A DNA stretch of 10,300 nucleotides, from assembly GCA_014380505.1 (NCBI GenBank), contig JACMJT010000595.1, positions 1 to 10,300 on the forward strand. The letters run 5' to 3'. The DNA comes from Hyphomicrobiales bacterium (GTDB taxonomy: Bacteria; Pseudomonadota; Alphaproteobacteria; Rhizobiales; Aestuariivirgaceae). The translations under genes and the position numbers were made by a program. The notes below the pieces were generated by a model, which was not told the DNA's origin, searched no databases, and saw only the letters and a list, made by a program, of their open reading frames with translations. This document shows, in pieces, positions 4,939 to 7,668 of this stretch. How positions within the stretch are numbered: the stretch's first letter is position 1; each line of letters opens with the position of its first letter.

Positions 4939-5484
4939 TTAACCCGGCATCAAGGTGAAATAGACCCCATAGAAGGCAATCCATCCCGCGGCGAATGTGG
5001 CCTTCACCGCGGTTTCGCTGAAACGCTTGCGCAGCAAGCCTGCCGCTACCATGACAATGACGATCGCAGCCCAGAAGCGCAGCAGGCGGGCCATGACCGT
5101 GGCGGCCATGAATGGCGCGATGGCGGTACCCATCGCACCTGCCTCGACGGCATAAATTTTGTAGGGCACGCCGCGGAATCCACCTTCGATGAGCGGCCAG
5201 AGGATTGCAGAATGCAAATCGCGAGCAGCGGCGGTAATCATCTCGGGCGCGATGGCGGGAAGACCTTCCAGAACATTCCGCGCTGCTTCCGCGTTCGTAC
5301 TACCCCACGCAAACATGAGTGCGCCGCCCAGCAAAGCGCCGCCGCAAGCCGCCAAGGATGCAAGGGCGGCTCGCCGCCAACCGTGGCGAAGCAACACCCA
5401 GGTCAACCACACGTCGGGCACGATGAAAAACAGTGTCGCTTCGGCAAGGCCCCACAGTGCCGCTATACCCAGGATTAATCCCAT
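4939..5484 (-). CDS. Small polytopic membrane protein of unknown function, possibly DedA/VTT-like
   Basis: This is a 181-residue protein with several hydrophobic segments (roughly residues 1-22, 38-60, 115-130, 136-151 and 163-178). I do not recognise a named family with certainty. The N-terminal WGLAEATLFFIVPD and the central FRGVPYKIYAVEAGAMG recall the DedA/VTT (SNARE-associated) membrane proteins, some of which act in lipid transport or scrambling; this is a weak resemblance judged by eye. ATG 5484 begins inside the last codons of the acyltransferase gene (overlap 5475-5484). There is no clear ribosome site, so translation is probably coupled. The frame is open upstream to 5616, but that stretch is arginine-rich and lies within the acyltransferase. 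As the last gene of a phospholipid-synthesis cassette, it may handle or move the product; this is inference. Confidence 0.75.
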   Translation of the reverse strand: MGLILGIAALWGLAEATLFFIVPDVWLTWVLLRHGWRRAALASLAACGGALLGGALMFAWGSTNAEAARNVLEGLPAIAPEMITAAARDLHSAILWPLIEGGFRGVPYKIYAVEAGAMGTAIAPFMAATVMARLLRFWAAIVIVMVAAGLLRKRFSETAVKATFAAGWIAFYGVYFTLMPG

Positions 5485-6107
5485 GCGGGAAAATGGGCTT
5501 CGGCAGCGAGTGCCTCGATGGCTCCGCGGAGATCGGCCATGAAGGTTTTCGTGTCGCCTTTCCAGGGAATGGGATCGCCCACGAAAATATCGCAGATGAA
5601 GGGCACGAGGAGCCATGTGCCTTTGGGAAGCGCCTTGCCAAGCCCGTGCATGAGGACGGGCACCACGGGCACGCCGGGGTTGTCCTTGACCAGCAGCGCC
5701 ACGCCGCGTTTGAACTCGGCCAGCTTCTCGGGCTCGCCCCGCGTTCCTTCAGGATAAAGCACGAGCACGGAACCTTGCTCCAGCGCCGCTTTCGATCTCG
5801 TCAGAGGATTGCCGCCGCCACCTCGCTCGATCGGCAGGATGCCGATGATCCGGGTGGCGAACCACGCCAGCCATTTGCTGCTCATGAAATAATCGAGTGC
5901 GGCGACCGGGCGAACCTTGGGAAGGCTGGAGAGCGGCATGAGGGACAGAAGTGTCAACGTATCGAGATGCGAATTGTGGTTGGCAACGACGATGGCCGGA
6001 CCCTTTACCGGAAGCTTTTCGCGGCTCCTGACATTGAGGCCGAGCACGAGAAGCACAAGGAACCGCACTGGCCCTGCAAAGAACAAATATCGCAAAGCGT
6101 TGTTCAT
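5475..6107 (-). CDS. PlsC-type 1-acylglycerol-3-phosphate acyltransferase family protein
   Basis: This is a 210-residue glycerolipid acyltransferase of the PlsC/LPLAT family. Such enzymes transfer an acyl chain from acyl-ACP or acyl-CoA to lysophosphatidate, or to a related lysolipid, at the inner membrane. The catalytic H(X)4D motif is NHNSHLD (His44, Asp49). The substrate-binding motif YPEGTRG is at residues 118-124, with IGILPIERGG between them and VPVVPVLMHG after. A hydrophobic N-terminal segment (about residues 8-24) anchors it. The start overlaps the ynbB-like stop as ATGA (6104-6107). No ribosome site is visible, so coupling is likely. The frame is open far upstream (to 6902), but only as an out-of-frame shadow of the cytidylyltransferase gene. 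Whether this is the organism's main PlsC or a cassette-specific acyltransferase cannot be told; its setting suggests the latter. Confidence 0.93.
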   Translation of the reverse strand: MNNALRYLFFAGPVRFLVLLVLGLNVRSREKLPVKGPAIVVANHNSHLDTLTLLSLMPLSSLPKVRPVAALDYFMSSKWLAWFATRIIGILPIERGGGGNPLTRSKAALEQGSVLVLYPEGTRGEPEKLAEFKRGVALLVKDNPGVPVVPVLMHGLGKALPKGTWLLVPFICDIFVGDPIPWKGDTKTFMADLRGAIEALAAEAHFPAWD

Positions 6108-7054
6108 GGATAAAAGAAATAACGGAAGAAGTGGGTGAAGGCGGGCGCCGCGAAGGTCAGGCTGTCGATGCGGTCGAGGATGCCGCCGTGGCCGGGAATG
6201 AGTGCGCCTGCGTCCTTGACACCCATGTCGCGTTTGACGGCGGATTCGGTGATGTCGCCGAGAAATCCGGCAATGGCGATGATGGCGCCGGCGGCTGCCG
6301 ACCACTGCCAATCCATCGGCGTGAGCCAGGGGCCGATGAACATCGCTAGCAAAATCGTGGTGCCAAGGCCGCCGAGAAATCCTTCCCACGTTTTCTTGGG
6401 GCTCACCGACGGCGTGATCTTGTGCTTCCCGAAGAGCTTGCCCCAGGTGAACTGGGCGACATCGTTGAACTGGGTGAGGAACACGAGAAAGAAAAGTAAT
6501 CCAGCGCCGCCCGCAACCGCACCGGCGACCGCGTCTCCCGAAAATAAAAGATAGGCCATGTGCGAGAGCGTAAACACGGTCATCATCAAGCCCCAGCTCA
6601 ATGTGCCGGCGGATTTGAGATAGCCATCGGTCTGGCCGCCCAACGCCATGATCGTGGGCAGCAGCAGGAACATCCACACCGGAATGAAAACTGAGAACAG
6701 CCCAAACTGCGCGGTGTAGGCGAACCAGTACTGCACCGGGATCGACAGATAGGCCGCGAGGACCGCAAGTCGATCGATCCTCCGCGACGGGATCATCGAG
6801 AAAAATTCCTTGAGCGCCAAATAGGAGATGAACGCCAAGAACACGGCCGACACGGCCTGATTGATGAATACGGCAACGGCGAAGACCGTTACCATCACCC
6901 ACCAGGATTTCACGCGCGCGGCAAGTTCCGGCTGTTTCTCCCGGCCTAGGGCAAACACAATCAGGCTTGCCACGGCCAGAATGCCGTAAACACCGGCGAC
7001 GGCGGCCACGACATTGGCCGGCACATCGAGATAATTGGCAATCCTGTCGATCAT
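6104..7054 (-). CDS. ynbB: Phosphatidate cytidylyltransferase, CdsA/YnbB type
   Basis: The enzyme joins CTP to phosphatidate to make CDP-diacylglycerol, the activated precursor of bacterial phospholipids, in the inner membrane. The product has 316 residues, many hydrophobic helices and the complete CdsA signature near the C-terminus: SAVKRDMGVKD (271-281), then PGHGGILDRIDS (287-298). The earlier block with FNDVAQ...GK..G and SPKKTWEG (218-225) is also typical. KSWWVMV, SYLALKEFF and the C-terminal FFRYFFY agree with my memory of E. coli YnbB more than with housekeeping CdsA, as does the neighbouring YnbA homologue; I therefore use ynbB with moderate confidence. ATG 7054 overlaps the upstream stop as ATGA, and GGAGG lies nine bases before it. 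Another cdsA presumably exists elsewhere in the genome. Confidence 0.94.
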   Translation of the reverse strand: MIDRIANYLDVPANVVAAVAGVYGILAVASLIVFALGREKQPELAARVKSWWVMVTVFAVAVFINQAVSAVFLAFISYLALKEFFSMIPSRRIDRLAVLAAYLSIPVQYWFAYTAQFGLFSVFIPVWMFLLLPTIMALGGQTDGYLKSAGTLSWGLMMTVFTLSHMAYLLFSGDAVAGAVAGGAGLLFFLVFLTQFNDVAQFTWGKLFGKHKITPSVSPKKTWEGFLGGLGTTILLAMFIGPWLTPMDWQWSAAAGAIIAIAGFLGDITESAVKRDMGVKDAGALIPGHGGILDRIDSLTFAAPAFTHFFRYFFYP

Positions 7055-7668
7055 TTCGCTTCGCCTCCAGCCAATACCTTCGCTGCCCTGTTGCAGACAG
7101 TCACCACAAGCAGCCCCACAATTACCCACTGATATGCGACCGCCCATTCCGCAGGAAATGGCGTGAACGCAATCAGGGCTGCCAGCAGCCCAAATGCAAA
7201 CGCACGATCGCTCTTGCCCATCGGCCCATCGTAGCGCCGCGTGCTGCCTACGGTGGGGCCGAGCACGCCGGTCATTTCGGTGAGGACCGCAAGGATTGCG
7301 GCCAGAACGGCGGCCGTGGGCGACAGTCCGGGGATCAGGGCAAAGGGCAAATATAAAGCTGTATCCGAGATGGCATCGCAGAGTTCATTGAGAATGGCGC
7401 CAAGGCGGCTCTTCTGCCCATGTTCCCGCGCCAGCATGCCATCGATGGCATTAAGCGCCATACGGATGAAAAGTGTCACCGGAAGCAGCAACAGCCAAAT
7501 CGCCCTGCCCGGCTGCCAACACAAGGCCAATCCGTGGGCGATGCTCAATGCCGCGGCTATTATCGTGACCTGATTTGCTGTGAACCCTGCCGCGGCAAGC
7601 CATCGGCAGACCGGGCGCAGCAGGGCCTGAAATTTCGGTTTAATGTCATATATCGAAGCCAAGGCCAC
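7051..7668 (-). CDS. ynbA: CDP-alcohol phosphatidyltransferase family protein, YnbA type
   Basis: Members move a phosphatidyl group from CDP-diacylglycerol to an alcohol in the inner membrane; the alcohol used by YnbA proteins is not known to me. The product is about 205 residues with several membrane helices. The core motif is present in altered form: Asn73-x2-Asp76-Gly77-x2-Ala80-Arg81-x8-Gly90-x3-Asn94-x3-Asp98, with a further Asp102. Two of the four canonical aspartates are therefore Asn. The N-terminal [13 protein letters not shown], the [16 protein letters not shown] stretch and GKSDRA match my memory of E. coli YnbA. No ATG is available near the homologous start. GTG 7668 is given, but TTG 7662 is equally possible and has a GGTGG at better spacing. 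A further GTG at 7773 would add an unlikely extension. It is the first gene of a four-gene overlapping cassette and is divergent from pyrB. Confidence 0.9.

Follow-up and report, generated by a model that had tools for sequence, protein, structure and literature searches.

An Uncharacterised ynbA–ynbB–plsC Cassette with a DedA-like Gene as a Candidate Accessory Branch of Bacterial Phospholipid Synthesis

Here we describe a cassette of four overlapping genes in a 10,300-nucleotide stretch of contig JACMJT010000595.1 from a Hyphomicrobiales bacterium (assembly GCA_014380505.1; this whole stretch is called the window). The genes encode a YnbA-type CDP-alcohol phosphotransferase, a YnbB-type paralogue of CdsA, a PlsC-type acyltransferase and a small DedA/YqaA-like membrane protein. 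We conclude that this is a real, patchily widespread and uncharacterised lipid cassette, which behaves as a conserved and portable unit. With a probability of a little under 60%, we read the four genes as a dedicated accessory branch of phospholipid synthesis, in which PlsC would acylate lysophosphatidate, YnbB would convert phosphatidate into CDP-diacylglycerol, from which YnbA would transfer the phosphatidyl moiety to an acceptor alcohol, probably a phosphorylated one of the polyol- or inositol-phosphate type. The DedA/YqaA-like protein would then shift the new, probably anionic, lipid across the membrane leaflets. The gene set, its motifs, a fold match and co-occurrence come from sequence analysis, and the synthesis of CDP-diacylglycerol by YnbB comes from the literature; the activity of YnbA, the class of its acceptor, the flipping and the purpose of the branch are what we infer. 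A preliminary description of the same DNA had arrived at a similar route. It is partly supported and right in outline, and it missed the altered motif of YnbA, the DedA/YqaA identity of gene 4 and the hint of a phosphorylated acceptor given by phosphatidylinositol phosphate (PIP) synthases.

The four minus-strand open reading frames (ORFs; Table 1) contain no internal stops, and adjoining genes share 4, 4 and 10 bp, in agreement with the preliminary description. The earlier YnbA-, YnbB/CdsA- and PlsC-type assignments agree with Pfam, which gave PF01066 for gene 1 (33.8 bits, cut-off 22), PF01148 for gene 2 (222.1 bits, cut-off 24) and PF01553 for gene 3 (75.4 bits, cut-off 23). They also agree with the Escherichia coli proteins: the product of gene 1 is 48% identical to YnbA, with the same NxxDG...NE motif and a 4-bp overlap with ynbB, and the product of gene 2 is 42% identical to YnbB. 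Gene 1 probably begins at the TTG at 7662 rather than at the GTG at 7668, because many homologues open with MASIYD and the database copy (P0124) has 203 amino acids.

The most unusual feature of the cassette is found in YnbA. Its AlphaFold model (pLDDT, the predicted local distance difference test, 91.6) matched 19 PDB chains of the PF01066 family at E ≤ 0.001. The signature of this family, D1xxD2GxxAR...GxxxD3xxxD4, has been termed absolutely conserved in print, and work on PIP synthase describes two metals bound by D68, D71, D89 and D93 (PMC6506517). The complete signature is absent from the YnbA of the window, in which D1 is N73 and D3 is N94. We compared 118 records, namely the window, E. 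coli, the best 80 of 586 loci from a contig scan with the YnbA alignment at one genome per species, and 36 further loci; the best 80 are biased to close relatives, and class- and phylum-wide samples were therefore searched for balance. Throughout these rows D1 is asparagine (116, with one serine and one gap) and D3 is asparagine (117, with one threonine), and neither is ever aspartate. D2 is retained in 117 rows (one gap) and D4 in all 118, and the residue following D3 is glutamate in 117 and aspartate in one. As a control we examined 20 of the 44 other PF01066 matches in 15 cassette genomes, drawn from 13 of them. All 20 carry aspartate at both D1 and D3, and the ORF filter required DG..AR only, so that neither position was selected for. 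The YnbA of E. coli has the Asn pair identical to that of the window.

The YnbA residues E95, D98 and D102 are spaced i, i+3 and i+7 and could, judged from this spacing, share one helix face; E95 might thus take over part of a metal site. In the reading that we prefer, YnbA would use a rebuilt metal site with Asn for D1 and D3, in which D2, the fourth Asp (the presumed catalytic base) and usually the new neighbouring Glu are kept. Our search of the open-access literature, with most subscription papers lying outside it, gave no report on the function of YnbA or on the altered signature; the mentions of ynbA that came up are entries in lists of genes or predictions of an enzyme.

A structure search with the YnbA model returned PIP synthases as all 14 top chains (template modelling scores 0.71–0.79), ranked above AF2299 and the serine and glycerophosphate enzymes, and the best NCBIfam matches, well under their cut-offs, are archaetidylinositol phosphate synthases and PIP synthases. 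R155 and R194 of the window protein align with R155 and R195 of the PIP synthase MtPIPS (PgsA1), which hold the phosphate of the acceptor there and whose mutation severely lowers activity. These two arginines are retained in 118 and 117 of the 118 YnbA rows, and this PIP-synthase-like pair is a new point. In the 20 controls, Arg is missing from the residues listed for the R155 column, and the R195 column is mostly Tyr. YnbA thus shares with the PIP synthases (MtPIPS, RsPIPS) the best fold match, the arginine pair, D2 and D4, and differs from them by the asparagines at D1 and D3, by a hydrophobic residue at the position of R94 and by NCBIfam scores below the cut-offs. Because the Arg pair is retained but R94 is replaced, our reading of the pocket is that it would suit a phosphorylated acceptor, not simply inositol phosphate.

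The double asparagine is not confined to YnbA. When 289 alphaproteobacterial genomes were searched with the DedA-like alignment (at most 11 candidates scored per genome), three matched (G001, G086 and G259). One of them, G259, has no YnbA at threshold; its DedA-like gene adjoins PlsC, YnbB and a remote CDP-alcohol phosphotransferase, here called YnbA2, which scores 60 bits to the YnbA profile and carries N at D1, N at D3 and then E. The order at this locus (L213:4025-6939) is YnbA2-PlsC-YnbB-DedA-like. In the best 120 of 3790 YnbA2 homologues (P0244–P0363), Asn at both D1 and D3, Glu right behind D3 and Asp at D4 are found in 120 of 120, and Asp at D2 in 119. All 120 lack the motif Arg, having V, I or F instead, and all 120 keep the acceptor-side Arg pair together with R at the R94 position, unlike YnbA. 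Erythrobacteraceae-like names (Alteraurantiacibacter, Erythrobacter, Qipengyuania) are common among them. Within the 289 genomes YnbA2 occurs in three (G259, G078 and G034), always adjoining ynbB and plsC; in G034 the residue following D3 is D, not E. A third remote type lies between YnbB and PlsC in G216 (L226:5538-7883), again with Asn at D1 and D3, and it has Ala where YnbA carries Glu, so that the proposed role of E95 would not extend to it. Next to this cassette, on the opposite strand, a gene encodes an 1127-residue protein with a PlsC-like stretch (L226:2148-5528). That remote subfamilies in the same gene setting have the double-Asn signature in common is a new point, read from the alignments. 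More tentatively, and with considerable doubt, one may speculate that at least three deeply diverged subfamilies transfer phosphatidyl groups through a reorganised Asn-Asp-Asn-Asp site, mostly with the new Glu and perhaps with a single metal, or another metal, in place of the two Mg2+, and that they make an undescribed phospholipid with their own acyltransferase, CDP-diacylglycerol synthase and DedA-type flippase.

In YnbB, the C-terminal signature of the CdsA/YnbB type is present, and S271, K274, R275, K280, D281, H289, G290, G291, D294, R295 and D297 are invariant in 18 YnbB rows; the signature is taken here in its PROSITE form. YnbB resembles CdsA in its whole PF01148 domain and in this intact stretch, and differs in forming a separate subfamily. 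In gene 3 we find H44-x4-D49 (HX4D) and YPEGTR, which we take to be the PlsC acyltransferase motifs HX4D and PEGTR; against the subfamily model TIGR00530 it scores 60.2 of 102.95 bits, and the cut-off is not reached. As for activity, PMC7018664 reports that E. coli YnbB makes CDP-diacylglycerol in vitro. The same paper and PMC6362211 describe that YnbB, even when overproduced, does not stand in for CdsA in phospholipid synthesis. In addition, a transposon screen picked up ynbB in a strain whose only enterobacterial common antigen is phosphoglyceride-linked, and the gene is described as unneeded for synthesis of this antigen (PMC8609368).

Gene 4 had been described as a small polytopic membrane protein; a membrane protein it is, and we can now place it with DedA/YqaA. 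The Pfam search with its product (P0004) gave no match; among 55 gene 4 relatives, PF09335 was detected in 10 at E ≤ 0.1 (best 1.2e-6), with 37.4 bits (cut-off 33.9) for the cassette copy of G008 and 21.4 for that of G001. Profile comparison with hhalign gave 95.4% for the YqaA group of four, 22% for the YqjA group and 2.5% for the YdjX/Z group, and a larger gene 4 profile gave 95.9% for YqaA, with 0.45% and 0.27% for the control families YnbA and YnbB. The gene 4 model (pLDDT 94.5) has a helix order which, at the level of secondary structure only, is compatible with the two reentrant and three membrane helices that PMC10127716 describes for the DedA core. No match emerged when individual E. 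coli DedA proteins were compared, and Foldseek with the model returned no PDB match; despite this empty fold search we prefer DedA/YqaA over an unrelated protein on the strength of the profile match.

Invariant across the 55 homologues are W11, G12, A14, E15, A16, V22, P23, D24, G105, P107, K109, R133 and R136. By our reading of the sequence, K109 in the GxPxK stretch would sit at the tip of the second reentrant helix, and an invariant Lys there would fit an anionic lipid. This sets gene 4 apart from the YqaA/COG1238 branch, for which PMC10127716 notes almost no positive residues at this tip; the same paper describes eukaryotic DedA proteins as phospholipid scramblases and some bacterial ones as undecaprenyl phosphate flippases. 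A second difference is that the strong matches follow the cassette. Among 16 chosen genomes, nine have a DedA-like match above 140 bits, all nine on the cassette contig; four weaker matches (44–57 bits) lie elsewhere and are probably other DedA proteins. In six genomes with a cassette that has no DedA-like gene (G010–G015), no DedA-like match was found at 1e-10. All three DedA-like matches of the 289-genome sample adjoin ynbB and plsC. This DedA-like partner, which follows the cassette, is a new point.

We then consider how widely the unit is distributed. Within the class to which an alphaproteobacterial metagenome-assembled genome (MAG) belongs, 18 of 289 genomes have YnbA; the corresponding counts are 13 of 274 for the class around a Methylomicrobium genome and 8 of 194 for the phylum around a Lacunisphaera genome, the centre genomes included. 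Wider context was obtained for 36 of these 39 genomes, the other three being the centre genomes. Among the hosts of the best 80 of 586 loci are the Bacillota isolate Kroppenstedtia and MAGs that carry the labels Planctomyces, Elusimicrobiota, Sulfurovum and Latescibacterota, which may be wrong. After exclusion of PlsC matches below 150 bits, ynbA, ynbB and plsC stand in one cluster in 93 of the 118 records, and in 26 of the 36 loci from the class- or phylum-wide samples; we judge that 7 of the 25 records without the full core are cut by contig ends (L016, L029, L037, L057, L068, L072 and L135). The preliminary description had looked to conservation of the four-gene order: the gene set is indeed conserved, and the order within the cassette varies between loci. 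A DedA-like gene is found in 22 clusters and ynbC or ynbD in 45, with a single cluster containing both. Clustering of the flanking ORFs revealed no widely recurring gene and none that would make or activate an acceptor, apart from a protein of about 150 residues in many Pseudomonas-type cassettes. This protein (L014:12720-13172; a cluster of 19 loci) has hydrophobic stretches, no Pfam match and a place between ynbD and plsC. Chance juxtaposition of the cassette genes is ruled out, because the same gene set recurs in many unrelated contexts.

The proteins also appear to be inherited together. For 91 loci at which all three are nearly full length, the distance matrices correlate at 0.67 (YnbA–YnbB), 0.66 (YnbA–PlsC) and 0.93 (YnbB–PlsC), values that include a contribution from shared descent of the genomes, and 500 permutations gave at most 0.11; the closest coupling is that between YnbB and PlsC. 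A quickly built YnbA tree groups the cluster types, which nevertheless switch many times. When the 289 genomes were searched with a YnbB profile that includes the YnbB of G001, G034 and G259, YnbB was found in 20, of which 15 have YnbA and three YnbA2, compared with about 1.5 genomes expected (20 × 21 / 289). The remaining two are G216, with the third type, and G267, with no recognised partner. Upstream of PlsC-YnbB in G267 we noticed genes for a small membrane protein and for a second protein, PspA-like by eye. Conversely, YnbA without a YnbB match at 1e-45 was seen in G091, in G207 and in G022, whose cassette lies at the end of a contig.

In relatives, the cassette would provide a second route next to the housekeeping one. 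The preliminary description had named the case in which these are the only cdsA and plsC genes, and this is rejected in relatives: at least two PF01148 genes are present in 14 of 15 cassette genomes and at least two PF01553 genes in 12 of 12 checked, and all 15 have further PF01066 genes. In the fifteenth genome (G009, a MAG) the cassette copy is the sole PF01148 match.

E. coli K-12 has a related arrangement, in which the operon continues past ynbA-ynbB with ynbC and ynbD, in line with the other downstream genes of the preliminary description. The ynbA-ynbB adjacency is shared with the window; the E. coli operon differs in having ynbC (a lipase-like hydrolase, whose N-terminal part resembles monoglyceride lipase, plus a methyltransferase) and ynbD (PAP2 plus a dual-specificity phosphatase) and in being without plsC and without a DedA-like gene. 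A PTPMT1-like phosphatase was considered for YnbD, which in the PDB matches dual-specificity and tyrosine phosphatases of a general kind. Among the nine genomes with a DedA-like cassette gene, a YnbD search found none except in G004, which has both gene sets, and G012 has a partial YnbD match away from its cassette. At some loci (L025, L035, L043 and L058) ynbC and ynbD are divergent from ynbA.

Several observations speak against an active accessory branch. YnbA is without two of the metal-binding aspartates, and changing the fourth Asp to Asn leaves PIP synthase with hardly any activity, so that activity of YnbA cannot be assumed. The NCBIfam cut-offs for PIP synthases are far away (60.1 of 170 bits for NF045883, 73 of 180 bits for NF040950), and MtPIPS R94, reported as critical for inositol phosphate, is matched by A in the window, all 118 rows having V, I, L, A or M there. 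Furthermore, ynbA stands alone in 7 of the 118 records, G267 (L227:5139-7815) has plsC and ynbB adjacent without a recognised YnbA, and no phosphatase accompanies the window-type cassette. Finally, an E. coli ynbB knockout grows normally according to PMC7018664 and PMC6362211.

The missing aspartates could mean that YnbA is a pseudoenzyme, which binds CDP-diacylglycerol without transfer and serves as a scaffold or sensor for YnbB and PlsC, these two merely adding CDP-diacylglycerol. The total absence of Asp at D1 and D3, set against the 20 of 20 controls, would be explained in this way, and so would the loss of the motif Arg from YnbA2. We nevertheless hold a pseudoenzyme to be unlikely: the presumed catalytic base is kept in every one of the 118 YnbA and 120 YnbA2 sequences and the Arg pair in both, which is unusual for a dead enzyme, and the identical Asn pair recurs in three remote subfamilies. 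The cassette might also be a spare copy of the ordinary phospholipid enzymes, called on under stress to make phosphatidylglycerol phosphate or similar. The patchy distribution and the varied flanking genes would suit this, as would the raised and acid-linked ynbA of E. coli that PMC12871917 reports; YnbA, however, forms a subfamily apart, marked by an invariant signature of its own, and is not a recent PgsA duplicate, and the failure of overproduced YnbB to replace CdsA points the same way, which makes a spare copy rather improbable. Quite improbable, too, is an MPIase-like glycolipid, for which YnbB would make GlcNAc-PP-diacylglycerol (GlcNAc, N-acetylglucosamine) and YnbA and PlsC would act in the same pathway. 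Overproduced E. coli YnbB does raise MPIase and restores it on CdsA depletion according to PMC6362211 and PMC7018664, but the ynbB knockout has normal MPIase in the same work, and a link to MPIase leaves unexplained why a CDP-alcohol phosphotransferase and an acyltransferase are tied to YnbB in distant bacteria. A dedicated accessory branch is hence the reading that we prefer.

Table 1. Genes of the cassette, with positions in the window.
Gene	Product	Position	Strand	Basis
1	YnbA-type CDP-alcohol phosphotransferase	7051..7668	-	Asn at first and third motif Asp (N73, N94)
2	YnbB-type CdsA paralogue	6104..7054	-	PF01148; C-terminal stretch SAVKRDMGVKDAGALIPGHGGILDRIDS intact
3	PlsC-type acyltransferase	5475..6107	-	PF01553; HX4D (H44, D49) and PEGTR
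4	small DedA/YqaA-like (VTT) membrane protein	4939..5484	-	relatives' alignment, profile comparison, helix order

The neighbours of the cassette lie on the plus strand. On one side we find a pyrB-like frame for a carbamoyltransferase, which ends at 8745, and a pyrC-like one for an amidohydrolase (8742-10058), and on the opposite flank two transporter-like genes and ruvX. The two transporter-like genes are consecutive (3062-4929), the first being PF03547 (auxin efflux carrier type) and the second without a Pfam match. Further away, on the minus strand, a GNAT acetyltransferase (1681-2391) adjoins gatC (1347-1640). A scan for promoters and terminators gave signals no commoner than in shuffled sequences.

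In summary, the orphan genes ynbA and ynbB of E. coli gain a conserved context across phyla, and the label of YnbB as a backup for MPIase becomes testable against a better-supported partner. A signature called absolutely conserved is broken identically in more than 230 sequences of two subfamilies. If YnbA is active, the four-Asp two-metal chemistry would not be the sole means of phosphatidyl transfer, and an undescribed lipid could be found in a laboratory strain of E. coli.

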